Below, piece after piece: positions 35,936 through 52,985 of a DNA stretch of 64,000 nt; position 1 is the first letter of the stretch, and each line of letters opens with the position of its first letter. The position numbers and the translations under genes were made by a program. The stretch is from contig CAJNDT010004635.1 in assembly GCA_905221615.1 (NCBI GenBank), positions 62,001 to 126,000 of the forward strand, in the 5' to 3' direction. Under the pieces are notes generated by a model, which ran no database searches, was not told the DNA's origin, and saw nothing but the letters and a program-made list of their open reading frames with translations. This stretch comes from Symbiodinium sp. CCMP2592 (lineage: Eukaryota; Sar; Dinophyceae; Suessiales; Symbiodiniaceae).

Positions 35936-36526
35936 GAGGGGCGGACTATAAGGAGCATTAAGTACGATCCTAAACCCCAAATCCAACAAACCTGAATTAG
36001 CGAACTACTCAAAGCTTTAGTTTGTCTTCCTGCAGTCTGGGACGCAGCCGGCTGCGACAAAAGAGGCGCCGACACCGCTGCTGGCAGCGGCGCTGTGCGC
36101 GCTGCGTGCGCACTGCGGCCTGGCTCCAGGGCAGCATGAGAACCCCTGTGTTCAAACTCTTTTCAAAAGGGTCTAAAAAGGTATAGCATTTGGGCGCCGG
36201 GTTTGGCAGGGGTTCTACACTTAACAAACTTTCTATATAGGATTCGCGAACGCAAAACGAAACGTGAGGTTCGGATCTTCGCAGCAGGGTCCCCGAGAAA
36301 CAGTGCATGCAACAGCCATCAAGAGACAAGGCAAGCTCTGCAAAACGCACAGCAACACAGGATCAGAACACACCTGGAGACTTGGCGTGTCACAGGCATA
36401 GCTATCATCGAAGCGTGGCAATTCCAAGTACAGAGGCTATAAAGTCCTCCGACGGTATGGGAACGAAAAGAAGTGGCTCTGACAAGATGCTTCAGGAAAG
36501 GTCTTGGGTGTTCAGCGCCTGGTACT

Positions 36527-36620
36527 GTTGGTGATATAAATCCTGCATTACCCATAAAGAAAATACCATTAGTCCCATAGTCTAGGGTCCTTAAGGTAAT
36601 GCAGGATGTATATCAACAAC
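36527..36620. mobile_element. MITE family C, copy 1
   Basis: Left arm GTTGGTGATATAAATCCTGC and right arm the inverse of GCAGGATGTATATCAACAAC. About 94 bases. Related copies lie at 51,073 and 52,891. It sits about 270 bases before the 5' end of the large LINE. Confidence 0.8.
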
Positions 36621-36877
36621 CGAGTTTCTCACTGTAGATTCCATCCAAGTCTGGCAGTGCTTTTGCTTTTAGTCTTTAGCATCAACGGCTTTCCTGCACC
36701 TTGGCGCCCGCTTTTCCACACGCCTTCTCGACTTCGGTGTTTAGGGTTGCTATCGGGCTGAACCCTAAACCCAAAAGCTTCCTGCCTGTCAAGCCGGGGG
36801 CAGCAACCGTAGTAAACAAAAGCCCGAACACCGATATTCAAAACCTAAAGCCTCAGAAATCCTAAATTTTAAACACT

Positions 36878-37066: not shown

Positions 37067-38434
37067 TTGAGCCTTCTTGAGGCTCATCACTCACGGCCTA
37101 GATATCGCGAAGCCGCCCGTATGGGACGAGGCCGAAACCCGGAAGCATGGCGATCGGAAGAGTCATATGGACATTCTGGGCGGCAACAGCCGTCCTGGGA
37201 AGTCTGGAAAGGCGCGAGGACACCGAAGACCGGCCAGGCCAAGAAGACCCCAGCACGGTACGACGAGATGGTCGTTCATGGATGGAAATCCTCCCAGGAC
37301 GAGACCCACGAAGAGATCCTGGATGCGGAACAACATGGGGGTTCAGAGCGCAGGCGTGCAATACAAAAGGCGCTTACACAAGCAAAAAAGGCCGAAAACC
37401 GTGCCAGGAAGATTCGCGAGGACCAGAAGTACCGAGAGCAACAATGGGAGCTATGGAAAAAGAAGGCGATAGCAGATTTCCAGCGGCAGAAGAGAGCCTT
37501 CGAGACGGACACCCAGAAAGCCCAGGAGGAACTTCGGCAAGCAATTCAGACCGGACAGCAAGCCGCTGCACTTGTCGAGCAGATTGCTGCCGGACAGCGA
37601 CTGCAGGAGGACACCTCCGAGCTGGATGCCGTTATGGCAGAACTCTCAGCCAACCCCGAGGCACCGGCACCTTCGGAGCCCTTCATGAAAGCAGCAATGC
37701 AAGCCGCCACGGCAGCAGGATTCCTAGACGGTGGACCCCTTACCAGTGGCGGCCAGGGGACGGCACCAGCTGCAGTGAGGCAGCTCAGACCAGAGATCCT
37801 GCAGCAGTTGATGGCGATGGCAGGATTGCAGCAACTGCAGGCAACAGCCGGCGGCGCTCATGTGCCCACTGTCGCCACCGGCCCAGGCCCATCCGATGCA
37901 CAGCTTGTTGGACTACTTGCCGGGCAGCAGCAAGCCAATGGCGTGCCACCACCGTCTGTGGCGCCCCCTGCTTATACTCCCACAGGCCAAGGTTCGGAAA
38001 GCCCTTTTGTAGAGGGACACCTGGGCATGTCCAAAGGTGTGCCCACTGCCGCAGCCCTTCCGACCCACGACATCACCAAGCATCCCACACCACAGCGGCC
38101 GAAGCACAAGCCACCTACGGAGGGAGAGAGGCCTCAACCTCCGAGGCAGCCTGTCAAACCAGTGGGTACGAACAGCGTGGTGCATCCAACATCCCCCTCC
38201 GGGCCATGCTTCCAAGACCGAGTGGAAGCCAAGCGAGAAGCACTACGCTCACAGTCGCAGCAGGAGATGATCGAGCAACAGGAACAGCAGGAACGGGCAG
38301 CAGCTGCGGCTGCAGCTCAGGCCGTTCACAACATTGGGGACTCCGAGGAAGAGGACCTACTGAGCCAAGAGCTGCCTCCAGATCTCGACCACGGAGGAGG
38401 TCCTCAATCACCAGGCCTGCGAACAATGGAGTGA
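37067..38434 (+). CDS. LINE ORF1, coiled-coil protein
   Basis: A 455-residue frame ending in TGA. Residues about 1-85 are basic and Trp-containing. Residues about 90-185 are a long, highly charged helix with heptad character (RKIREDQKYREQQWELWKKK, then AFETDTQKAQEELRQAIQTG), expected to form a coiled coil. The middle (about 215-330) is Ala/Gln/Gly-rich, and residues 330-390 are Pro-rich. A second Gln/Glu-rich helix (EMIEQQEQQERAAAAAAAQA) precedes an acidic C-terminus. LINE ORF1 proteins usually trimerise through a coiled coil and bind the element RNA. No CCHC knuckle or RRM is visible here, so RNA binding would rest on the basic regions. The 37,067 ATG is about 180 bases into the element; the ATG at 37,121 is an alternative. 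Confidence 0.75.
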   Translation: MSLLEAHHSRPRYREAARMGRGRNPEAWRSEESYGHSGRQQPSWEVWKGARTPKTGQAKKTPARYDEMVVHGWKSSQDETHEEILDAEQHGGSERRRAIQKALTQAKKAENRARKIREDQKYREQQWELWKKKAIADFQRQKRAFETDTQKAQEELRQAIQTGQQAAALVEQIAAGQRLQEDTSELDAVMAELSANPEAPAPSEPFMKAAMQAATAAGFLDGGPLTSGGQGTAPAAVRQLRPEILQQLMAMAGLQQLQATAGGAHVPTVATGPGPSDAQLVGLLAGQQQANGVPPPSVAPPAYTPTGQGSESPFVEGHLGMSKGVPTAAALPTHDITKHPTPQRPKHKPPTEGERPQPPRQPVKPVGTNSVVHPTSPSGPCFQDRVEAKREALRSQSQQEMIEQQEQQERAAAAAAAQAVHNIGDSEEEDLLSQELPPDLDHGGGPQSPGLRTME

Positions 38435-39800
38435 CCAACACAGCGTTCCTGAGGCAAATAGTTTCCCGAACTGAGATTGCTCTCGGCAGGAGTTCCCTGG
38501 AGGGTCCGTGCATCGGAGTTGCATTGGCGCATCTCCATGCTCTGTTACCCATCGGGTTGAGCCCTTGCTGGCAGCTCTTTCAGGACGCGGGAACTACATG
38601 CCATGGAGCCATCGCTGAGTACTGTACAGAGGCAGTAGTGCACACACTTGTTTCGCAAGGCCCCTCGTGCCCTTCCTCTTCTGCGAGTGTACGAGCCTCG
38701 CCTTTTCGTCTTTGTGGCTATCTAAGAGTAAGTCGATCATTGGGCTGCGGTCTGACTTTTACTCTAGATGGCTCCTCTCCTGCCCTGCCGGCATTGCATT
38801 GGGTTTGTGCAATTGCCAGCGACGGTAACAGAGTGCCTCTGTGCCCTCGATCCTTCTCCTTGAGAGGCCGCTTGTACATAGCTTTTGGAGTTGTACAGTG
38901 CCGCCTTTTCAGTGTGCCTGCCCTGCCTTATCCTTCTGACCTAACTGCCGCTCTTTTTAGGTCATGTGCTCTCAGGAGCCAGCGAGGCTCTACTTCTTCC
39001 GGTGTTCTCCCTGCCGTCGCCACGAGTTCTGGTCCCGGGTCTCAGCATACTTGGGTTTGGTATGCTGTATTCCCGCTTCCGGACTCCTCTTCCTCCGCCC
39101 TTGGAGATGCCGGCCTTCTTTGCCGTGCTTCCTCCTGGGCCCCGCCGACGCCTTGGTTCTCCTCGGTCTGCAAATCACGGCCTTGTCCTTCTGCAGCCTC
39201 CGGCTGCTTCAGTGTATTGCCACCGAGCTGCCCTGCTCCCAACCGGGATCTCTCCGGCTTCGGCTCTGCACATATCGGCTCAGTGATGCCACCCTTTCAT
39301 GGAGGTTTCGGATACAGCGTGCCTAACACTTGCATCGGTGGCTCTGGGGCAAGGACCTGTACCGACCTCCCCCATTTAGGCGATACTGCTGGTTTTGGTC
39401 ACGGAACTTGTAATCCCCCACCCTTTTGGGGTTTAGTCCGGTTTCCTCCCCCAGCCAATTCCTGCCATGCACAGGACGAGCACCCGTGGGTCGCTTGGTG
39501 CGCCCTGCATCTGTGCACATTTTGTGCCACAGGTGCGCTTTGCAGTCTTGGTGCCCTTCTCTGGCTTTGGACTAGTGCTCTGTTAGGACGCCGCCCTGTC
39601 AGCTCTGCTTCAGGCGGACGCTTGTGTGCCAGCCCCTTTCTGCAGCCTGTTGTCTTTCTTGCCAGGGCTGCGAATTGTGATCGCCCTCTCCTCGTTTGGA
39701 CAGGTACACGATTCCCTGCGCGCAAGTCGCGGCGCCGCCGCCCCTCAGTGTCTTCAGGTTGGCTGCCTTTTCTTTGCCAAGTCCTGCTTGGACACTCGCT
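38435..39800. other. Inter-ORF pyrimidine-rich region of the LINE
   Basis: More than 1.3 kb rich in CT and CCTT words. Because stops are depleted by composition, several frames stay open, and the frame that becomes ORF2 is open throughout. The conceptual protein here is low-complexity (Ser, Pro, Cys, Leu) and unlike the modular part that follows. I treat the region as non-coding or weakly coding; the true ORF2 start is unknown. Confidence 0.45.
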
Positions 39801-41136
39801 GCCCCACAGTGTTTGGGCAGCCCCTGGTGGTGCAGACGGTGCCGCTGCTCTTACTGCCTCCCTTGCCACCCACGGTCCCGTCGGCCATCCTAGTGACAGC
39901 GCCGCGCTGTCTCCAGCTCTCTCTTCGACTGGTGTGTCGCTTCCGGGCGTCCCTGCAAACACCATCGATGCTGCCCAGCTTGCTACAGGCTCTGCCGATC
40001 CCAATCTGCACTGTCTTGTCTTTGCGGCCGGCTATCGCACCGAGCACTTGGTCTTGGACGTACCATGCGACATCACTGCTGATGCTCTCGTTGCCCGGGT
40101 CCAGGTTGCTTCAGCCTTGGTGCAGCGGCTCTCTCCAGCCCACCTTTTCCCGGCACACCCGCAACCGGGACAGGGGTATGCCAGTTTTGTTGTTGTCCCA
40201 GATTGGGTGCCCGCCGACCGGCGTCAGGTTGTGCTTCTTGATTTTTCACGGATGCATGGCCCTGTTTTTGGACACGTCTTCCACAATCCCCTTACATACC
40301 GGGACCTTGTGACAGAGGCTGTTGCACAAACTGACGAGCTTTGGCATGCATATATACCCAACAGCTTCGAACCCCTTGCAGTTGGCTGCGAAGTCACTCT
40401 GTCGAGTGGTGATGTGATCAGCTTCTCTCCCCGGGATGTTCCGCTGGCACGGGACTCAGACCTCACCCTGCTGCTGTCCAGACCCTCGTCATGGCAGCGT
40501 GAGCCGGACCACGTCCTGCTTGAGCGGCCTACCTCTGCCTGGCTTGTTATTCTGCCACAGTCCGTGCAAAGTTTCCCCTTCTACGGAACCTTCACTGCTG
40601 ACTTGCAACAGGCCATTGCCGACCAAATGGACAGTCAGGTGCAGCACGTCAGCTTTGGGCACCCCACGGAGCCTCTCACCGACGTGGTGTATCGCGGGCG
40701 GCTCTACGATAAAATTGCTGCCGCCGATCACCGGTCGGAGAACCTGCCTCCCGGCCCCAATCTCGGGGCGTTCGTGTTCCTTGACGCGAGGCAGTCTGCT
40801 CGCGGCCTCGGCTTTTTATTCGAAGGGCATGGAGCTGTCGTCCCTACCCAGGACGGTGTGCGAGTGCTTGGCCTACGCCCTCCGCGCGGTTTCCGCACTT
40901 ACGCGGAGCACGTTTTCCTTCGACGCGAGGGCCTCCCAGTCGTCGATGGATGTGTCTTGGTTCTGGGCTATGAGTTTGATGAGGACACAGTTGGCACAGT
41001 ACCTGCATCAGCCGCCCCTGGTGTTATACTGCTCTTGCCACCGATGAGAGGCTCGATGGCACTTCTGCTGGCGCAGCCGGCGAAGCAGCTTCCCCCTCCC
41101 TCGGCTCTGCCCCGCCACCGCACATTGGGTTCCTAG
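39800..41136 (+). pseudogene. LINE ORF2 segment 1: module copy 1
   Basis: This is the reading frame of the 37,147-41,136 ORF; its coding character becomes clear from about 39,830. It holds the first copy of a two-part module. Part A (about 40,015-40,440) starts CLVFAAGYRTEHLVLDVP, passes PQPGQGYASFVVVPDW and ends TLSSGDVISFSP. Part B (about 40,540-40,985) ends VVDGCVLVLGYEFDED. The frame must change between 40,983 and 41,136 to continue into segment 2. No enzyme motif is recognised. Part of a giant polyprotein, broken in this copy. Confidence 0.65.
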
Positions 41137-43736
41137 TCCTTAGCCCTCGGGTTGCGCCCATTACTCTTGAGATTCCGCTCGAGATTCCGTGCTCCCCCCA
41201 GCACGCTTGTGAAACCCTTGCATCACATCTGCGGACAAACTTGGCCACCACGTATGAACATCTTGTGGTCGCCCAGCCACAACCGGACCGCAGGTTTTGC
41301 ACTTTTATCGCCCTCCCGTTATGGGCCACCCATGTGGTCTGTGTGGTTGTGGATGCTCGGGCTGTCGACGGGCGGCTCTTTGCCATGCACCTGGACAATG
41401 GGCTCTTTCCACGCTCCATTCTTGTCCAGATCAGCCTCCGACCATCCCTAGGATTTCGGGTTATGCATAACGACCATGTGCATCAAGCCCAAGAAGCGAT
41501 TTTTCTTTCAAAGGGAGATGTTCTCTTCATCCTCCCTGCACGCGCTGCTGCTCCAACCCCCCCCAGGCTCCCAGATATGCTGTACCAGCTCGATGGCTGG
41601 CACCTGCCGGTACCGGACTTTAAGGGATTCCTACAAACTCCCTTTTATTTGCTTACCGATGCTTGGAACACTGTTGCAGACTTCCCGGCTTCCGCTTCCA
41701 CTTCCTATACAGCGCTCCGACAGTTTGCTACCGCATTCCTGCGATACGAGGACCACAGATCCTCACTCCAGACACTGCACCCACGTGTAGCGGACTACAA
41801 CTTCCATGGCATCGTGTGTCGAGCTGTCCTGATTGCCACGGAGCAGCCTATCGGTCTCCCGGTCCCCCCTGCAAGGGCCAGGCCGCCGTGCATTGCATAT
41901 GCCGTTGATAGGCGTGCTATTCTCGCGGACATTACTTGGCACATCACTCCCACCGGCCGAGTCGACCTCGACTCCCTCATGCGAGAGTTTGAACCAGCAC
42001 CGTCCGGCTTCTACACCTCCATCACAGGCGGTCTGCCAGAATGCGAAGGTGCCAGGACCTTCTTGCGTGTTGACAATGGCCAGGTGCTGACCGTAGCATA
42101 TGAGGAGGATCTTCTTGAGCCGGACCGACACGGAGACAGCACCCCCCCCGATGACGAACCGGATGATTCCGACTCCAGCAGCACTTCTTCCGCACTGCCA
42201 GCAACCCCTAAACCAGCGCCTCGACCCATGCCCGGCGCACGTAACCGCAAGCGACGGCTCACTGACGGCACTCCGGGCGCCGGTGCTTCCAGCGGCCCTA
42301 CCGTCGCTGTCAATGTTTTCATGGGCTGCCTAGTTAGTGCCCAAGTACCAGCTGCTGCTGCCGTGCTTGCGGATACGCCTAGCCACCGACAAGGTCTTGG
42401 CATTCTCGCTACACACAGCCACCTTACCGTACTGCGGTACTCTTGGGGTTTCCTTGTCGATGTTCTCCTTTTCGTCGTACTGTGGCTGTCCTGCGGCCTC
42501 CTTGTCTGCACAGCCGCCTCTTGCCGCCAGGCCAAGCTCCTGCTCGAGCCGCGAGCCCACAACAGCCCCATGCGACACGCCCTAGCTGCCTTGCGCTACT
42601 TTGCGCCACGCCTGGGCGGTGCTTGGCGATATATTCCTGCAGCGGATGCCGAAGTCATCCCCGGTTCTAGTGGTTCTGAAGAAGGTGACGAAACACCAGA
42701 GGACGGTCTCGCCCTCTTTGCAGTGCTTGCCCCAGGCTATGCACCAGAACAGGTGGCTGTCATAGTGCAGTTCCCCGCCACCTTAACTGAGGCCCTTGAC
42801 ACTGTGCAGCTTGCCCGTCATAGTATCCATAAGCATTGGTTGCCTGTTCCTGTTCCTGTCGAGCCCCAGCCGCAGCCGGGCATCGGCACCGTCATTGCTC
42901 TTGCCGACTGGCAGAGACAGGACAGATTCGTCTGCATCGACAGCACCCAGCTCGACGGGCGCCGCTTTGTCGTCCAGGCACCTCACTATGCTGACAAGCT
43001 TGCACTCCTGCACCTTGCCGATATTCAGCTAAACCTAGGCATAGCTGTTTACATCGGGGACGATCCACAGCCACTCGGTGATGATGTCCAGGTGCAATTA
43101 TGGACCGGACTTGCAGTTTTCTTTCTGCCACCCGAGCGCCACCCACCCGTACCCTACTCTCTCGCCTGGACCCTAACAGACTGGCGTATGTGGCGCCAAG
43201 CCCTGCCGGAGGCCTTGCAACCTCCACCTGATGCATATGCCCTTGTCTACCATGACGAGGTTGCACTACACATCACTGACCCTAGGCGCCCCACCCGACA
43301 CCGTCACCAAATTGCAGCCGCCCTAGGCATCCCCCTTGCGACACTACAGCTTGTGCCCGCGGTGCCACGGCTAACCAATGCCGCACTCACCGGACTCCAC
43401 TGCAGAACCGTCCTCGCAGTCTGTGACAGCTCTGTCCAAGGACCGCTGCCCTGGTGTGTCGTCCTTTTGGATCTCCGTGCCCTACTTCGTGGGTGGAGCA
43501 CAGTTGTCGCTCCGCATCATCGGCTCTCTTGCGATAGCTTGCGCGAAGACCTAGACAACCACTCACCTCCAGGCTGGCAGGCATGCCTACACGATGTCGG
43601 ACGTGATGTGATTGATGTGCACCCGGGACAGGTACTTGTTGCATACTACCGGCCAGGCCGTGTTGCCATCCCTGCTGCTCGGGCTGTCTCGCCCTCTGCC
43701 GGTGACGCTCCACCCCAGTGCCGCCACCCCAAATGA
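40983..43736 (+). pseudogene. LINE ORF2 segment 2: module copies 2 and 3, membrane segment
   Basis: Reading frame shifted relative to segment 1 and open from 40,983. Module 2A begins near 41,128 (GFLVLSPRV) and ends LSKGDVLFILP near 41,543. Module 2B ends DNGQVLTVAYEEDLLEPD near 42,125. An acidic/Ser linker follows, then basic RNRKRRL. A strongly hydrophobic segment lies near 42,433-42,515 (SWGFLVDVLLFVVLWLSCGL), a likely transmembrane helix. Module 3A begins near 42,716 (LFAVLAPGYAPEQVAVIV) and ends LWTGLAVFFLPP. Module 3B ends HPGQVLVAYYRPG near 43,660. The frame closes at 43,736 and the next segment lies in another frame, open from at least 43,612. Confidence 0.7.
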
Positions 43737-43989
43737 GGCCGCGCCCCTCACACATCCCAGTGGCCCCCCTAGATCTTACGGTCCTGCTAGCCATCCGGCT
43801 GCGACTTCGTCGTCCACAGGGCCGTCTGCTGGCCCGACCGATGATGACACTGTAGCAGCTGCCACTGCTACACCGGCAGGTGCTGCCCAGATCGAGTACC
43901 TGCCTGGCGTTTTCCTTGTCCTAGCACAGGACTACTGTCCAGAGCCATGCACGGCTTCCGGTCGGCTGTCCGGACAGCCTTGCGCTTGA
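43612..43989 (+). pseudogene. LINE ORF2 segment 3: linker and start of module 4
   Basis: A third frame carries a Pro/Thr/Ala-rich linker and then YLPGVFLVLAQDYCPE near 43,900-43,944. That is the same opening as modules 1A, 2A and 3A (hydrophobic, then L-A-x-x-Y). A further frame change between 43,925 and 43,989 leads into segment 4. The open frame was placed by homology to the other module copies, not by transcript evidence. Confidence 0.6.
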
Positions 43990-46900
43990 CAGTGTTGGTG
44001 CAGCCAGGGCTCCTTTCTCTCGTATCTGCATGCCCAGGCTCATTGCTGCCTATCCGCAAACTATTGCAGGTGCCGCCCTCCTCCTTGCCCTCCCGTTTTG
44101 GACACCGGACGGAGTTACTGTTGCGTGTGATCTCACACGCCTCACTGGGGTCGTCTTTGCTTTGCAATTGCCCCGAGTTGTCCGACGTGACGGCCTCCTT
44201 CGTGCCTTGGGTGTCGCTACAGATGCGCGCGTCGATCTCTATCTCAGAGACCTGCCCTGGCCCATGCCCCATGGGGCGGTCTATGACCTCCGTAACGGTG
44301 ATACTGTTGTTGTCACCCCTGCAGCACAGGCCGCGCATGCACCCATCCCCACAGGCTCACTCAGTGCGCGTCTTGCCTCAGCCGCTGCCTGGGATCCCAC
44401 TTGGGGTCCCGATGCCACCTATGCAGACACCGTATGGCTCCTTACCGAAGTTGGCCATTTCACTCATGTTGTACCACCCGGCAGGCGCTCCTTCTTTCGG
44501 GATGACGTCGCCGCGTTATTGGGTGTTCGTGCTGATCGCATCACCTTTGCGGCTCCCGATCCCGCCATCAGGGATCATGCTGAAAAAGGGGTTCTGTCGC
44601 TCAACGTCATTGCAGTGCTTGGCGACGAACCCCCTGACCTCGAAGTGCGCCAGGGTGGATCCCTGTGCTTCATCGACAGTCGACCGATCCTCACTGGCAT
44701 CTCCCGCATTACTGTGCATGGAGGAGGTTTGGACACTGCACGCCTCCACCGGCGCTTTGATCCGCGCTGTCCTGTCGGATATCGACTGTGCCGTCTACAC
44801 CCCGACCATGGGCCATGCCTGCTCCCTCCTGTCTTAAATGTGCAGCATGGTGAGGTCATCGTCCTGTCGTTTATGCCAGCTGAAGCCAATCCCATTAATG
44901 TCCCTCCCGAGGACGGCCCCGGCCCTGGACAGGGTGGAGCGCCCCGTGGTCCTGCTGCTGCACCTCCCGCCGGTGATGCTGCCTCTCCTCCTGCCACCGA
45001 CAATCCGACATCGAGTACGGGGCAGACCGACGCCGGCACCGGTGGTACCCAGCGAGCCCGTGATGGCCCATCCTTCGACTGTATTGGCCTCTTTTCCGCC
45101 CGCAGGCAACCACACAGTGAACAATGTGTCAGTCGAGTTGTTACGTGGCGACAAGCTAGTTCTGTCTCCTACTTGGCGTTCACCTCTATCCTCCTGCATC
45201 TTGTTCACTGGGGCTTGTGTGCCCTGCGCGGTGCGGCTTCCACTGCAGGCTCACATCTTGTTGCCCCTGCCGTTGTGCCTCGTCGTGGCCGGCACCGCCC
45301 CTCACCCGGTCGGCGCCTCTGTCGGCCGACTGCACTCATCCTTGTCCTGATTGTTGCGGCTGCTCTGCCACTCGCCGCTGCGACCACTTCCGGTGGCACG
45401 CCTCCTGGCGCTGTATGCCACTCCTTCTGTGGCTCAGGCCTGGCCTATGCTGTTGGCCGCCTGTCACGCCCGGTTGCCACTCCTTGTCGAGCTCCTGCGG
45501 CCGTCGGGCATCCGCCAGGTACAGCAGATCCCACAGGTGCCCTTATTCGCCTGGATACTGCCACCCATGGGTTCGAATTGCCAAACGACCTGCCTACGTT
45601 GCTTGATCTCGCCGCCAGGCAGGACAACACCTGGGCACTGCGGGCCGTCACCCTGCTCGAGGGGCTCTTCCGGCACGGTGATGATGGTGATGATGGTACG
45701 CCGAGCTCGCCCTCTGTTGCACATGAGCCAGCTGCCGAAATCCCTCGGCCTTCACCCATTATCCAGCTTGCCTCAACAGTGCCACTCACTGCCTACCAAA
45801 GTAGCTGTCTTGAGTTACAGGCTCTGGTGCCTCCTGTTGCAGCTGCTACTGCTGTCGACTGGCTTGACAACGATCTCCGGCCACTGCTTACAGCACCGGA
45901 TACCTCCCCCGAGGTCCGCCATGCTATCCCAGCCATTACCAACTGGCATACCGCTGGCGGTGACGGGAGTCTTCTTCCCGCCCTCGTACACATCTATACC
46001 GACGGCTCTGCCCGCGGGACGCATGAGCCCCTCGCCAGTGCACCATGCGGCTGGGCCTTCAATGTATGGATTGAGACCGCTAGTGGTTGGTACTTCTATG
46101 GCTTCGCAGCAGGCACAGCTGTACCCCCTTTCACCCGTTTCCATCTTGGTGAGATGGATGACTCGCCTCTTACAAGCGAGCTTCTTGGAGCTGCCTGGGC
46201 ATTGGTCTGGGCTGCCGAATACGGCCCCACTTTCGCCTGCCCGCTGCATCTCCACTACGACTGTGCTGCTGCAGGTGAAGGCACCTTTGCTCAAGCAGTA
46301 CCCGCCAGTGTCCCCACGGTCACAGGGGGGCCCAGCCTCAGCCACGTCGCCGTTGCTCTCCGGCACATTGCAGCTGCCCGTGTTGCCCTTACCTCTGCAT
46401 ATGTGCCAGGGCACCGGGGCGCACTTGGCAACGAGATCAGTGATTCTCTTGCCAAGTACATCCGCCGGCAGGCCCTGCCTCTGGATGAACGTGTCCACCC
46501 CGACTGGCCAGCACACCTAGTACAACACGAGCTTCTAGACTGGGCCTGGCTCGCGCACGCCTGCGCTGCCGACCTGCCCACACTCTTTGCCTTTGAGTCT
46601 GAAGCTGGGCGCCTGCAAGCCCTCTGTCCACAGCCACGGCCCGCTCCACATTGTGGAGTTACCCAGACCGCCGACGATACCGTCGCACCCGTGCGGTATT
46701 GCATTAAGGCAGTCACGTTCAACATTCTTACCCTACTCGAAAGCACACACGCCAAGCGTCGTGTCCAGACGCATGCTGGCCTTCGAATGATGGGACGGCG
46801 ACATGTCATCCTGCGACAGTTGCAATCGCAGGATGTGCTTTTTGCGGGGCTCCAAGAGACACGAGTACAGGATACCGCTCTGCTTCCCGACCGGACCCAC

Positions 46901-49900
46901 ATACTCCTCCATTCCGGGGCAAGCGAGGCCGGACATTACGGTTGTGCCCTCTGGATCAGTAAAACTGTTCCTTATGCACATGTCAATGGCAAGCCTATGT
47001 GCATAGAACCTCGGCACTGCACTGTTTCGGCCACCTCGCCGCGGCATTTAGTTGTCTGTGTAGAGGCGCCACACCTTCGTCTTGGCGTGCTCGTTGTCCA
47101 TGCGCCCTCCGACCCCCACGATGACAAAGGAGTGCTACATGCCTTTTGGGCGGCTCGTACCCTCGAGCTTGGCAAACTGCCCAACGATGTGCCAGTTTTG
47201 CTTCTTGCCGATGCCAATTCTCGCCTCGGCAGCCTTGAGAGCGAGGCTGTTGGGCCGCACCACCCCGAAGATGAGACGCCTGCTGCGTCACATTTTCATA
47301 GCTTTCTGCTACGTAATGGTCTTTGGCTGCCAGCCACCTTCGCTGGCCTGCACAGCGGCCCGTCTTGGACCTGGCAGTCCCCACGTGGGGACCAGCATCG
47401 CCTCGACTACATCGGCCTTCCGCAATCTTGGGCCACTTTTTCCTGCCGCTCCCGTGTCTGGTACACCTTTGAGGCTTTGCAACAACGTAGTGACCATCTG
47501 CCGGTCATAATCGAGTGCTCTTTCGCGCGCGAAAGCAGCTCGCGCGCATCTGCTGCATTTCGCCGTGTTGCTTGTCGGCCTAACGACTTGGATCCCACCA
47601 TTGACAAACAGGCATTTTGCCATGCACTATCGGCTGCCCCGCCAGTCGACTGGTCTGTCAATGTGGACAGCCACTATTGCGCCTTTGTTTCCAATTGGAC
47701 GGCCGCGGGCCGTGCGCAACAGCCCCGGTCTACCCCCAAGCCGCAACAAAGCTTCCTAACCGCGCCTACCCTTGCCATTATTCGTCGACGCAAGGATACG
47801 CGCATAGCCCTACGTGCCGCCGAGAAAGAGCTGCATCGGCGCTTGCTTGTCGCTGGTTTTGCAGCCTTTACTCACCTGCATGCTGCCTCAGCCCTCAACA
47901 CCGGCTCTGCAGCAGCCACATGGGCCTGGATTAGGGGTGCCAACCACAACATTGCCTTGGCGTGGAGCCGCCTCCATCGGCTCTGTACTGAAGCCCGCCA
48001 GGCCGTCAAAGCAGACCGCTGCCACTACTTGCAGAAGCTGGTTTCTGAAGTTGGGCAAGCTGACCTCCGAGACCCGCGACATCTGTACCAGTGTGTGCGG
48101 AGGGCCTTTCCTAAAGCCGCCTCTGCCAAACGGTCTCGTTTTACCCCGCTCCCTGCCGTCGCACTTGCCGATGGCACTCTCGCCGTCACCGGGGCAGAAA
48201 GGGCAGCGCGCTGGCGTAGCCATTTTGCAGCCCAAGAAGGCGGTGTCGACATTTCTCCTGCGGACTACAGCGCCGGCTTCGCTGTCGACGCCGCCCGAAG
48301 CACTGCGCCCGCCGTCTTCGACCCACGACTGCTGCCCTCGCTCACAGAGCTCGAGACATCCGTGCTCCAACTCAAACGGGGCAAGGCTGCTGGCCCAGAC
48401 GGTGTGACATCAGAGCTCCTAAAATTAGCGGTACCCACCGCTGCGCGGCAGCTGCTGCCTCTCTTCGTCAAAAGCTTACTCACCGTCCGCGAGCCCATTG
48501 AGTTTAAGGGAGGAGCTCTAATGACGCTCACCAAGAAGGCGGCATCTGCCTTCGAGTGCGATCGCTATCGCAGCATTCTGCTATCGAGCGTTCCTGGGAA
48601 ACTCTTGCATAAGAGCCTTCGCAGACGCATCACTCCTCTGCTCCTCCAACACAGCCCTGACCTTATGGGCGGAGTCCATCCAGGGGTTGGGGTGGACTCG
48701 ATTGCGACTGCAGTACGGAGCTATCAAGCACACGTGCATGCTAGTGGAGAGCACCCCGCTGTTGTGTTTTTCGACGTTCGTGCAGCCTACTACCAAGTTG
48801 TACGCGAGACTCTCACCAGCGATGCACCGGACGACTCCATCCTTCAGTCTCTCTTCTGCAAGCTTGGGGTCCCTCCTGATGCGCTCGCCGAGCTCCGCGA
48901 CCACCTTGCCAGTTTGAATCACCTCATCGACAGCAACGGCTCCCTCCATCTCGAAGCCTTCACGCGCGAGCTCTTCAAGGGCACCTGGTTTCGGCTTGAC
49001 CAGCATGTGGATTTAGTCGCCACCTCGGCCGGCGTTAGACCAGGCGATCCGTTGGCCGATGTGTTCTTTGCCCTGAGTTTCAGCGCTTATTTGCGCTCAG
49101 TGCAAGCCTTCCTGAGACAACAGTCACTGAGTACAGTGCTGCCGCCTTGCACTACTCTCTTGCCGGTCGACGGTCTTGAAACCGAACGCGAACTCTCCCC
49201 TGCCTCCTGGGCGGACGATTTCGCTGCCATGTTGTCTGCAACCAGTCCCGCCCAGGTCGTTCGCAAGGTGCAGGCCACTACGTCTGCTTTCTTGACCCAT
49301 GCCACCGCCATAGGTATGCAGCTTTCGTTTGCCGTTGACAAAACCGCCGCTCTGCTGCCGCCTACAGTGCTTTTCGCCGATGTTTGTGACCTCCCTCCTT
49401 CTGGGGCCGCCTATGAGCATGCCATACTGGTCTACGACAGTATCGCACTGCGCACTGTTCATTTGCCTGCGGTACAGGCATACAAGCATCTCGGTGGGAT
49501 CGTCACCTGCAACGCGCCACTTCTGCCTGAGATCTATTACCGGTTCTCACAGTGCACCTGGACGCTGCGGCCGCTGCGTGGCACCCTCTTTGGCAACCCC
49601 AGCATACCCCTTCCTCTTCGGCGAGCCTTGCTCGGCTCCCTTGTTGCCACCAAGTTCACGTACGGCTCCGCCACCATGGAACTGCACGTTGCCTACCAAT
49701 GGCGGCTCTGGGCCCGCCTGTACACTTCCATCTGGAAGGCGTTGCAACCGCGATCCTCTGCCGCCGACAAAATCCACTCCTATGAAGTGCTTCGGCAGGC
49801 CAATGCCCTCGCTCCGCCACTTGCGCTTGCGAAAGCCAGGGCCAGCCTGTACCTGAGGGTTCTCGAACATGGGCCCCAGACACTCCTCCACCTTTGGTGG

Positions 49901-50692
49901 CTGCAGTGGGAAGCCACGCCGGCACGATCATGGCTCGCCATGCTACAAGGCGACCTGGAGTACGTTGCCATGTACTGCCCTGCCGTCCAGCTCCTGCTGG
50001 ACTCGCCTTGTCCACTTGTAGCACTCACTGAGACAATGCTCCAGGATCGCACCTGGTGGCGCCGGCAACTGAATGCAGCGGCCAGGATCTATTTTGCTGA
50101 CCTTGAGCGATGGGCCCAAGGCCGCCGCAATACTGCTGCCTGCCCACTGATCCCTCCTCCTTCCGCGGACGCCTACTATCGATGTCCCTTTTGCACAGCT
50201 AGTTTCCCGCTGAAGAAGCATCTCAGCGTTCACATAGCCCGCCACCATGGGTTACCTGCGCCCAAGCGGCTCTTTGCGCCCCATGCTACCTGTCTCGCCT
50301 GCCTTAAGCATTTTCACTCCATTCCCCGGCTGCAGAACCACCTCAAGAGTGTGCCACGCTGTCTTGAGCGCGTGCACCTCTTAATGCCACCCTTGGAGTT
50401 GTCTGCTGTAAGAGCTATTGAGCAAGCTGACCGGGCACACCAAAAGCGGCTTAAAACGGGCTGCTGGCAAGCTTTCGATGCTAACAAGCCAGTGCTCCAG
50501 GCGCTCGGCCCTCTACAACCTACGCGTGCTGAACTGCTCAGCGCGCTAGGAGAAGAGGCGCCACTCTCACTACTGGCACAGCCGCCACCGAACCCTGCTT
50601 TTACGGCATGGGTGTGTAACGACATCCACGGCCGCACACGTGAGCCACCCCGGGCAGGCACACGCAGTTTCTGGTGGCAACGTATCCAGTAG
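43925..50692 (+). CDS. LINE ORF2 segment 4: module 4, RNase H, endonuclease, reverse transcriptase, zinc fingers
   Basis: A 2,220-residue frame from the ATG at 44,030 (numbering below). Module 4A ends LRNGDTVVVTP near residue 104, and 4B ends QHGEVIVLSFMPAE near 286. Two hydrophobic stretches lie near residues 380 and 440. RNase H has all four acidic residues: D658 (IYTDGSARG), E717, D744 and D805 (GNEISDSLAK). AP-type endonuclease: N898, E943 (LQETRVQD), D1061/N1063 (LADANSRLG), RLDYIGL and S-D1155-H1156. Reverse transcriptase: fingers GKAAGPDGVTSELLKL (from about 1450), DRYRSILLSSVPGKLL, D1582 (FFDVRAAYYQV), VRPGDPLADVFF and the ADD motif D1729/D1730 (SWADDFAAML). A C2H2 finger (CPFC...HLSVHIARHH, from C2052) is followed by CLAC...HLKSVPRC. 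This enzymatic core appears intact. RNase H upstream of the endonuclease is not the usual LINE order. Confidence 0.9.
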   Translation, partial: HRTTVQSHARLPVGCPDSLALDSVGAARAPFSRICMPRLIAAYPQTIAGAALLLALPFWTPDGVTVACDLTRLTGVVFALQLPRVVRRDGLLRALGVATDARVDLYLRDLPWPMPHGAVYDLRNGDTVVVTPAAQAAHAPIPTGSLSARLASAAAWDPTWGPDATYADTVWLLTEVGHFTHVVPPGRRSFFRDDVAALLGVRADRITFAAPDPAIRDHAEKGVLSLNVIAVLGDEPPDLEVRQGGSLCFIDSRPILTGISRITVHGGGLDTARLHRRFDPRCPVGYRLCRLHPDHGPCLLPPVLNVQHGEVIVLSFMPAEANPINVPPEDGPGPGQGGAPRGPAAAPPAGDAASPPATDNPTSSTGQTDAGTGGTQRARDGPSFDCIGLFSARRQPHSEQCVSRVVTWRQASSVSYLAFTSILLHLVHWGLCALRGAASTAGSHLVAPAVVPRRGRHRPSPGRRLCRPTALILVLIVAAALPLAAATTSGGTPPGAVCHSFCGSGLAYAVGRLSRPVATPCRAPAAVGHPPGTADPTGALIRLDTATHGFELPNDLPTLLDLAARQDNTWALRAVTLLEGLFRHGDDGDDGTPSSPSVAHEPAAEIPRPSPIIQLASTVPLTAYQSSCLELQALVPPVAAATAVDWLDNDLRPLLTAPDTSPEVRHAIPAITNWHTAGGDGSLLPALVHIYTDGSARGTHEPLASAPCGWAFNVWIETASGWYFYGFAAGTAVPPFTRFHLGEMDDSPLTSELLGAAWALVWAAEYGPTFACPLHLHYDCAAAGEGTFAQAVPASVPTVTGGPSLSHVAVALRHIAAARVALTSAYVPGHRGALGNEISDSLAKYIRRQALPLDERVHPDWPAHLVQHELLDWAWLAHACAADLPTLFAFESEAGRLQALCPQPRPAPHCGVTQTADDTVAPVRYCIKAVTFNILTLLESTHAKRRVQTHAGLRMMGRRHVILRQLQSQDVLFAGLQETRVQDTALLPDRTHILLHSGASEAGHYGCALWISKTVPYAHVNGKPMCIEPRHCTVSATSPRHLVVCVEAPHLRLGVLVVHAPSDPHDDKGVLHAFWAARTLELGKLPNDVPVLLLADANSRLGSLESEAVGPHHPEDETPAASHFHSFLLRNGLWLPATFAGLHSGPSWTWQSPRGDQHRLDYIGLPQSWATFSCRSRVWYTFEALQQRSDHLPVIIECSFARESSSRASAAFRRVACRPNDLDPTIDKQAFCHALSAAPPVDWSVNVDSHYCAFVSNWTAAGRAQQPRSTPKPQQSFLTAPTLAIIRRRKDTRIALRAAEKELHRRLLVAGFAAFTHLHAASALNTGSAAATWAWIRGANHNIALAWSRLHRLCTEARQAVKADRCHYLQKLVSEVGQADLRDPRHLYQCVRRAFPKAASAKRSRFTPLPAVALADGTLAVTGAERAARWRSHFAAQEGGVDISPADYSAGFAVDAARSTAPAVFDPRLLPSLTELETSVLQLKRGKAAGPDGVTSELLKLAVPTAARQLLPLFVKSLLTVREPIEFKGGALMTLTKKAASAFECDRYRSILLSSVPGKLLHKSLRRRITPLLLQHSPDLMGGVHPGVGVDSIATAVRSYQAHVHASGEHPAVVFFDVRAAYYQVVRETLTSDAPDDSILQSLFCKLGVPPDALAELRDHLASLNHLIDSNGSLHLEAFTRELFKGTWFRLDQHVDLVATSAGVRPGDPLADVFFALSFSAYLRSVQAFLRQQSLSTVLPPCTTLLPVDGLETERELSPASWADDFAAMLSATSPAQVVRKVQATTSAFLTHATAIGMQLSFAVDKTAALLPPTVLFADVCDLPPSGAAYEHAILVYDSIALRTVHLPAVQAYKHLGGIVTCNAPLLPEIYYRFSQCTWTLRPLRGTLFGNPSIPLPLRRALLGSLVATKFTYGSATMELHVAYQWRLWARLYTSIWKALQPRSSAADKIHSYEVLRQANALAPPLALAKARASLYLRVLEHGPQTLLHLWWLQWEATPARSWLAMLQGDLEYVAMYCPAVQLLLDSPCPLVALTETMLQDRTWWRRQLNAAARIYFADLERWAQGRRNTAACPLIPPPSADAYYRCPFCTASFPLKKHLSVHIARHHGLPAPKRLFAPHATCLACLKHFHSIPRLQNHLKSVPRCLERVHLLMPPLELSAVRAIEQADRAHQKRLKTGCWQAFDANKPVLQALGPLQPTRAELLSALGEEAPLSLLAQPPPNPAFTAWVCNDIHGRTREPPRAGTRSFWWQRIQ

Positions 50693-50774: not shown

Positions 50775-51072
50775 CCTCCACTGTTCAACCTCCAGACTCG
50801 CGACCCTGAACACAAGGCACTTTGTACCACTGGGATCAGGTCTAACCAAACCTTCCACCCCACCATCCTGTTGATCAAGGAGCAGGCATGAGCACTCAAA
50901 ACCCCTAATTTTCGGAAACTCCTTTCGGATACTCTAAATCCCTATAAAGCCCCTTGAAGGAACCCTTATAGTACCCCTTTAGTTGAGTCTACAACCCCAA
51001 AACCCGGGGAAGCCTGGAGGATGCAACGGCGTCGATGAACCGCCTTCGCCTGTTTTGGGATTGTTCGTGCTT

Positions 51073-51173
51073 CGGTTGATGATATAAATCCTGCATGACC
51101 CATAATAAGGAATATGCCATACTTCCCATCGTTCAGGGTCCTTGAGGTAATGCAGGATTTTTACCATCAACCG
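51073..51173. mobile_element. MITE family C, copy 2
   Basis: Ends CGGTTGATGATATAAATCCT and the inverse of AGGATTTTTACCATCAACCG. Interior CCCATAATAAGGAATATGCC is close to copy 3. It lies about 300 bases after the LINE 3' end. Confidence 0.8.
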
Positions 51174-52163: not shown

Positions 52164-52890
52164 AACCCTGAACCGTATCACTTGGGTGAACCCGAGGAAC
52201 GAGGAAGATCTGAGACAAACCTGCCGGAGAGGCGAAGATGCCTCGGCAAGCTCTCCAACGGAAGCTGGGTTCTTGCTAAGGGATCTAATTCAAAGTTACC
52301 ATCATGGGGATAAGGGTTCCTTCTTCTGGGTTCGGCGCTTTAAGGCTCTCTGGGCTCTAGTTTGAAGGCTTTTGGACGCAAAGCAAAGATCGCCCTTTTG
52401 CACAAAGGCTTGATTGGAGCTCGCTCGGCCCTGAAACCTAAGACCACATGCTCCCAAGAGCTTTGCAACAATGTGGAGACTTCGGGGGACGGAAGGCCAG
52501 CTCATGCCCTTTTTGCCCTGGCTTCTTCCTTGAGTTTAAGGCTCGGGGGCTCAGGATTTGGTCCAGGGTTTAAGAAGTTTACGGTTTGGGTTTAGGGTTA
52601 GAGGCCCGGACGGTTTCAGGGGTTCACTATACTTGTGCTCAAGCCCCACTTGAGTTCATCATCCATATCCAACACATCCGCTCATAACGTATCCGTACTA
52701 ACCCACTATGTTATCTAGCAGTATGTAGGTCTTCAGTCCCGTCTATCAACCGCAGAGGTTTCCTTCGGATACTAGGCAGCCCTATTGGAAGCGATTTTTC
52801 AGGGTTTGGGGTTTACGATGGCAACTGCCTGGAGCTGCCTCAGTATTGCTGGGGTGCTCGGTCGCAGGGCCCGGTACTCTTGCTGGTGTT

Positions 52891-52985
52891 GCTGTTGATG
52901 ATATAAATCCAGCATCACCCATAAAAAAGAATATGCCAGTATTCCCATAGTTTAGGTTAAGGTGCTGGAGGATTTACATCATCAG
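52891..52985. mobile_element. MITE family C, copy 3
   Basis: Ends GCTGTTGATGATATAAATCC and the inverse of GGATTTACATCATCAGC. Interior AAAAAAGAATATGCCAGTAT. It is shorter than copy 2 by a small internal deletion before AAGGTGCTGG. Confidence 0.8.

Follow-up and report, generated by a model that had tools for sequence, protein, structure and literature searches.

The window analysed here, a 64,000-nucleotide stretch (G000:C4634:62001-126000) of the 1.1-Gb genome of Symbiodinium sp. CCMP2592, a strain listed as S. tridacnidorum (PMC8045281), contains a single copy of a long interspersed nuclear element (LINE) on the + strand. In this element, a first open reading frame (ORF1) is followed by a giant ORF2 that is split over three long stop-to-stop frames, all on the + strand: a (37102-41136), b (40983-43736) and c (43925-50692). 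The copy is damaged: its reading frame is interrupted by shifts, which lie between modules 1 and 2 and near where module 4 begins. The N-terminal half of ORF2 is occupied by four tandem duplicates of one two-part module, and the RNase H, endonuclease and reverse transcriptase (RT) domains follow downstream, so that the placing of the array upstream of the enzymatic domains of a LINE, proposed in a first-pass annotation of this DNA, holds for this dinoflagellate element.

Each module consists of a part A and a part B, whose boundaries were set by profile, and all four lie on the + strand. Module 1 (40006..40974; A1 40006-40437, B1 40531-40974) is read in frame a; module 2 (41121..42104; A2 41121-41540, B2 41634-42104) and module 3 (42714..43655; A3 42714-43133, B3 43230-43655) share frame b; and module 4 (43909..44878; A4 43946-44323, B4 44426-44878) is in frame c, except that the first strand of A4, at about 43909, lies in another frame. 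The annotation had recognized the array by twelve short motifs, all of which are present in the translated window: 11 of the 12 fall within frames a, b and c, and VFLVLAQDY, at about 43909, stands in another frame just before c. From one module start to the next there are about 1115, 1593 and 1195 bases, in agreement with the spacing of 1.1-1.6 kb that it gave.

Shared ancestry, age and selection of the modules

Homology among the modules was measured with profiles from 19 other genome copies that have long open frames (20 copies were fetched, L009-L028, and L014 was dropped as broken). A mutual HHalign probability above 90%, set beforehand as the test, was exceeded by each A-A and B-B pair, with values of 99.1-99.9% for the six A-A pairs and 98.5-99.8% for the six B-B pairs; modules 3 and 4 compared whole reached 100% (E 9e-42, 317 columns). 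When the columns of the second profile were shuffled (30 times for each of 4 of the 12 same-kind pairs), scores stayed at or below 17.8 and probabilities at or below 1.4%, against real scores of 92-114 for the same four pairs. Even the damaged window segments alone recognize one another in BLASTP with a 4-sequence database, at E 1e-12 to 1e-4 in the better direction over six pairs and at E up to 0.026 in the worse (module 1 vs 3), and their identity of 22-31% is as low as had been stated. The anatomy of modules 1-4 is secure, and their function is inferred.

The two parts of the module are related to each other through their C-terminal halves. Individual A and B parts from the 19-copy profiles gave HHalign probabilities of 0.2-64%, and pooled A (139 sequences) against pooled B (132) scored 35.0 (83.7%), where 40 column shuffles reached at most 13.7 and a reversed profile 12.1. 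The C-terminal halves of A and B match at 94.3% (score 34.4; at most 17.1 in 30 shuffles), and for these halves the view that A and B are wholly unrelated is rejected. The other five half-pair comparisons stayed inside the shuffle range; the N-terminal halves, at a score of 8.7 against as much as 10.6 in shuffles, show no match. Since A and B share this half, the C-terminal piece occurs eight times, and the layout is a repeated N(A)-C-N(B)-C', that is, eight related units in alternation. The description of a two-part module is to be corrected in that the two parts are themselves related, their C-terminal halves being homologous.

The modules are translated and under purifying selection. Among nine copy pairs, the ratio of nonsynonymous to synonymous divergence (dN/dS) is 0.02-0.19 in the eight parts where dS is measurable, many values being saturated, and 0.19-0.54 in the linkers between modules 2 and 3 (M2-M3) and 3 and 4 (M3-M4). 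A first look at the genome gave 1046 module-4 candidates; an internal stop was found in 1 of the best 123 that were scored, the window's own included, and open frames extend up to 5233 amino acids. A second copy of the element, L002 (G000:C1136:750791-754744), has 97.6% DNA identity over 3954 aligned bases, and its module-4 protein is 100% identical.

The age claimed for the copies is borne out by a tree of 84 modules. The tree, made by a quick method with support from the Shimodaira-Hasegawa-like approximate likelihood ratio test (SH-aLRT) only, draws on the window element, 10 of the 19 aligned copies and 12 of the 24 module-bearing proteins described below; the program warned of five long branches and of one suspect join. 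In one clade (SH-aLRT 99) stand 22 of the 23 first-detected modules together with the second module of P0021, the exception being P0016, in which the first module detected belongs to the module-3 kind. The 11 genome rows of module 4 form one clade (98), and the 11 of module 3 lie inside a 26-row clade (99) that also includes three rows of module 2, a kind that comprises more than one lineage. Among six three-module proteins, P0015, P0017 and P0018 bring together kinds 1, 3 and 4, and P0016, P0021 and P0022 do not show this combination. In L024 (G000:C4953:60335-70334), modules 1 and 2 group with L016/L025 and modules 3 and 4 with L020/L027, which suggests recombination between elements.

Distribution of the module and class of the element

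The proposal that the module be sought in other dinoflagellate LINEs was answered positively by protein searches, in which a module-3 profile found 2 proteins and the whole array 22. RNase H, endonuclease or RT is present in the same protein in 17 of the 24 module-bearing proteins; of the 7 without enzymes, two are short through the query-length filter and five stop about 240-375 residues beyond the array. With the RT as query, 133 proteins were found, and the 120 listed were split by rank into near relatives (P0025-P0109, RT identity at least 36%) and distant ones (P0110-P0144, 25-32%, except for two short matches at 45%). All 48 near relatives with at least 600 amino acids before the first enzyme domain carry modules, 6 of them with a single A copy, 7 with two, 24 with three and 11 with four, counts taken on proteins many of which lack their N-terminal ends. 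The corresponding figure for the distant RT relatives is 6 of 22. Parts A and B alternate in 345 of 359 adjacent pairs among the listed relatives; the profiles used for counting were iterated on the same proteins. Four copies, as first described, is thus correct for the window LINE, but the number varies between elements. Named sources are mostly coral-symbiont algae of the genus Symbiodinium (CCMP2592, CCMP2456, KB8, microadriaticum and necroappetens), and the modules seem to mark one clade within a wider family of RNase H-endonuclease-RT LINEs. Five distant relatives (P0111, P0113, P0118, P0138 and P0140) have 1865-2487 residues before RNase H with no detectable modules, and the known domains of the module-less P0111, P0113 and P0123 are RNase H, RT or endonuclease only.

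Membership of a known family was rejected for the module: among 16 module members, none matched Pfam above cut-off or PHROGs at E up to 0.01, and the module profile found no PDB sequence at E up to 10. The module accordingly cannot be assigned to a family, as had been said of it, and searches of the open-licence literature found no retrotransposon with such a repeated domain. The element is a LINE with a new domain family, the LINE architecture itself being known.

The enzymatic part of ORF2, also on the + strand, begins with an RNase H domain (45986..46465), recognized by a family profile built here; against Pfam RNase_H the window scores 18.5 bits, under the cut-off of 25.8. It lies upstream of an apurinic/apyrimidinic endonuclease (APE)-type domain (46712..47512), which matches PF03372 at 29.9 bits, above the cut-off of 24.5, and so supplies the APE-like endonuclease that defines APE-type LINEs. 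A predicted RT domain (48440..49621), with an ADD motif at 49205, was again detected by a family profile built here; its RVT_1 score is 15.8 bits, under the cut-off of 29.6, and two of three relatives tested matched RVT_1 with scores higher than the window yet still under cut-off. The RNase H-RT stretch has no match among PDB sequences at E up to 0.01, and hence no nearest solved RT. Close to where ORF2 ends, a candidate C2H2 zinc finger (50177..50248) matches zf-C2H2_4 at 22.8 bits, below the cut-off of 27 (E 1.4e-4). RNase H directly precedes the endonuclease in 101 of the 118 listed relatives that have an endonuclease, and no RNase H was seen after the RT in the relatives' domain rows inspected. 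There are no long terminal repeats (LTRs): the longest direct-repeat families in 30-58 kb measure 31-77 nt, of which the 61-nt family is a simple TA repeat and the 42-77 nt families recur outside the element. Stretches that are 80-86% alike flank the LINE (36520-36622, 51061-51173 and, as a third copy further out, 52880-52956), and the LINE may have inserted into a repeated region.

ORF2 start, RNA hairpin and hydrophobic flanks

ORF1 (37121..38434, +) is an open frame from a likely ATG (MGRGRNPEAW...), with an MG..W start conserved in other copies, and has no Pfam family above cut-off in the window. The ORF2 frame, at -1 relative to ORF1, can be followed from its first ATG as the open frame 37147..41136 (+), which holds the hairpin and hydrophobic segments described below as well as module 1; the true start codon is putative. 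ORF2 had been called giant, and giant it is, but its extent may have been underestimated: the frame stands open almost from where ORF1 begins, and the protein may be much longer. Openness was examined in 20 rows (19 copies and the window) and compared with synonymous codon shuffles, 200 for each row. The -1 frame is stop-free inside ORF1 in 16 of the 20 rows, and L012, L019, L020 and L028 have few stops, all upstream of the frame's first ATG. For the 19 rows that share this frame relation, the shuffles expect 8-22 stops on average and never gave as few as observed; in the window, none is present across ORF1 against 11.9 expected. Two rows are not reliable: in L026 the frames are related differently and ORF1 is broken, and in L013 ORF1 starts in the other frame.

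The first ATG of the frame stands 26 nt after the ORF1 ATG in the window and 11-38 nt after it in 18 of 18 rows (the 20 minus L013 and L026; L014 is outside the analysis). An ATG that close also occurs in 9-55% of synonymous shuffles, so its distance is weak evidence for the ORF2 start, whereas the stop-free frame is strong evidence. On the simplest reading of these frames, ORF2 would begin near the start of ORF1, through leaky scanning or an early frameshift. A codon-position pattern over ORF1, clear in 2 of 4 close pairs (L020/L021 and L011/L012), indicates that the ORF1 protein is what is held there, and the ORF2 overlap is thus kept open rather than conserved.

Between ORF1 and the first hydrophobic segment (TM1) lies an RNA hairpin (39329..39353, +) with arms at 39329-39333 and 39349-39353 (5 bp) and a loop at 39334-39348, found in 20 of 21 sequences (the window and L009-L028; L018 lacks it). 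There are 24 hairpins in all, one or two per sequence (two in L009-L012), with the near-invariant loop ATCGGTNGYTCWGGG. Across 15 different hairpins, every one of the 75 cells of the 5-bp stem is paired, with two-sided changes in all five pairs. The covariation score was reached by 0 of 500 shuffles, for a structure drawn from the same sequences and on related rows, and slid versions of the structure are 38-53% paired; neither the number of pairs with two-sided changes nor the number of pair types exceeds shuffles (290/500 and 154/500). The U-G pairs, in 4 cells, are compatible with the + sense alone. A second helix, with loop GGU and 3' flank RCC, is a suggestion: it is 97.8% paired and hardly varies. 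A search of 35-52 kb against Rfam gave no match with E of 0.1 or lower. Weak codon periodicity had made a noncoding spacer a candidate for this region; this was dropped, as all 23 hairpins with a traced frame are in frame with ORF2, and the stretch may be translated. By eye, a peptide-like string, SSALSFGCTP, also occurs between ORF1 and TM1 in L018 (three similar copies), L025 and L028, and is possibly another nucleotide-level motif.

Hydrophobic segments stand on both sides of the array, all on the + strand. TM1 (39511..39567) is a 19-mer with a Kyte-Doolittle value of 1.82, and a signal-peptide-like segment (39760..39831), recognized by pattern and conservation, has a putative cleavage site, VWA^AP, before base 39820; many copies share this order upstream of module 1, in which a loop separates the hydrophobic segment from a second such stretch that ends in an LPxxVWA^AP-like sequence. 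In this stretch (TM-SP), dN/dS is 0.15-0.31 where measurable, and 0.44-0.69 before it. Two further hydrophobic segments, seen by eye, follow module 4 (about 45170-45226 and 45329-45382), after which RPVATPCR stands at 45467. A 19-mer with a Kyte-Doolittle value of at least 1.8 is present upstream of the array in 70% of 56 sequences (shuffles: mean 19%, best of 50 30%) and downstream in 68% (mean 18%, best 30%).

The composition of the array is acidic and poor in lysine. Net charge per 100 residues is -4.0 in A, -2.0 in B, -1.7 in the endonuclease, -3.3 in RNase H and +2.0 in RT, and lysine amounts to 0.65-0.80% in A and B, 1.8% in RNase H, 2.5% in the endonuclease and 3.7% in RT; the expectation for lysine is lowered in any case, since the strand is poor in the base A. 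Among the 20 copies, 14 were measurable, and in these lysine is 1.5-1.7% in the M2-M3 linker and the TM-SP stretch. In the same copies the M3-M4 linkers have 0 lysines in 1127 residues and the A-B hinges 1 in 1657, with arginine present.

Candidate roles of the array and comparison with known LINEs

As evolution has kept the array intact, it probably has a job in the movement of the element, and the few invariant residues (9 invariant columns among 16 diverse modules) give no sign of a catalytic site. The role favoured here, with a probability of roughly 0.35, is that of a multivalent docking scaffold without enzymatic activity, anchored to a membrane, that would position the retrotransposition complex. 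The hydrophobic segments on both sides would tether the ORF2 protein to a membrane, most simply the endoplasmic reticulum (ER) or the nuclear envelope, where the modules could bind a host or element partner and this binding could bring the RNase H-endonuclease-RT part, together with its RNA, within reach of the genome; host signal peptidase may, more speculatively, cut before module 1. In favour of this role stand the homology within A and within B, the low dN/dS of the parts relative to the linkers, the modules of all 48 near relatives with enough room upstream and their alternation of A and B, the few invariant residues, the frequent hydrophobic 19-mers on both sides of the array, the VWA^AP-like sites and the constraint on the TM-SP stretch. 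Several observations weigh against this docking role. The distant RT relatives are mostly without detectable modules (16 of 22), and the array is therefore not needed for this kind of RT. A loose signal-peptide pattern is only weakly above shuffles (upstream 73% vs 53%, best shuffle 64%; downstream 57% vs 51%, best 64%), and many relatives lack the signal-like site, some of them being spliced gene models. N-glycosylation sequons and cysteines, moreover, are not enriched in A or B, which disfavours a lumenal place.

The same lack of enrichment weighs against a reading of ORF2 as a secretory polyprotein, cut at signal-like segments and with the array lumenal or outside as an envelope-like part, to which we give little credence. 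It would account for the hydrophobic stretch with a signal-peptidase-like (VWA^AP type) site that, by our own count, 27 of 56 sequences have ahead of module 1, for the paired hydrophobic segments after module 4 and for the often hydrophobic beginnings of the ORF2 frame, but it leaves the return of the RT to the cytosol or nucleus unexplained, and the hydrophobic stretch early in the frame may simply reflect a conserved motif of ORF1 read in another frame. Somewhat less improbable, though still unlikely, is that the array binds element RNA or target DNA as a packaging or nucleoprotein domain working with the ORF1 protein: it is in the same protein as the RT, its repeats suit multivalent binding, and the conserved hairpin is available as a possible target. 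Its parts, however, are net negative and lysine-poor where the RT is net positive, a contrast that does not decide the matter, since the endonuclease and RNase H are negative too.

Chromodomains tether some LTR elements to chromatin, and the array could likewise tether the complex to chromatin or to a nuclear target-site protein, the hydrophobic segments being incidental. Clade-wide conservation with variable copy number would fit such a role, for which protein-binding repeats are a common means, but the hydrophobic segments then go unexplained although their stretch is under purifying selection, and no related host domain appears in the Pfam, PHROGs or PDB-sequence libraries; we hold this, like nucleic-acid binding, to be improbable. 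Chance or compositional resemblance in decaying sequence, which the broken window copy and the low identity between its modules might have suggested, is refuted by profile scores far over shuffles and by purifying selection, and is contradicted also by the long open frames of other copies and the presence of modules in other species; we regard it as having next to no probability.

A broader form of membrane docking is more doubtful than the scaffold role itself. On this reading, a clade of dinoflagellate LINEs would have made of ORF2 a giant membrane-anchored polyprotein, overlapping ORF1 in another frame and delimited by internal signal-like segments, whose new eight-unit array would act at the ER or nuclear envelope as a docking or envelope-like machine arisen within a LINE. 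LINE ORF2 proteins usually consist of a few enzymatic and zinc-finger domains; here a clade has kept a repeated domain, absent from the libraries searched, over long divergence and under strong selection. The dinoflagellate nuclear envelope stays closed through division, and if the array docks the element to a membrane, the access of a retrotransposon to DNA behind a closed envelope becomes testable; if the fold is new, the protein catalogue gains a family. Translation of ORF2 is an open question for most LINEs, on which the overlap of the ORF2 and ORF1 frames and the covarying hairpin both bear.

Among described elements, SymbioLINE-Dnmt, the one near relative that the literature yielded, shares with the window element its place among Symbiodinium LINEs and its combination of an upstream ORF with an RT-bearing ORF. 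The upstream ORF of SymbioLINE-Dnmt encodes a DNA methyltransferase, and the figure legend lists Exo_endo_phos, RVT_1 and RNase_H domains (PMC5890265, de Mendoza et al. 2018); ORF1 of the window, in contrast, has no DNA_methylase in a Pfam scan at E up to 1. In the text consulted, SymbioLINE-Dnmt is given no repeated N-terminal module. At the level of folds, the strand and helix pattern of the C-terminal half (VYVGDxxPLxxG...GDTVxF), read by eye, gives an impression of ubiquitin-like (beta-grasp) domains, from which the modules differ in having no sequence match in Pfam or PDB.

With canonical APE-type LINEs such as L1 and I, the window LINE shares an endonuclease followed by a predicted RT, a candidate C-terminal zinc finger and an upstream ORF1. 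RNase H follows the RT in the I-like clades, whereas the window LINE places it before the endonuclease. Unlike L1 and I, the window LINE also has an ORF2 frame that stays open through ORF1, and a giant N-terminal half that carries the module array.

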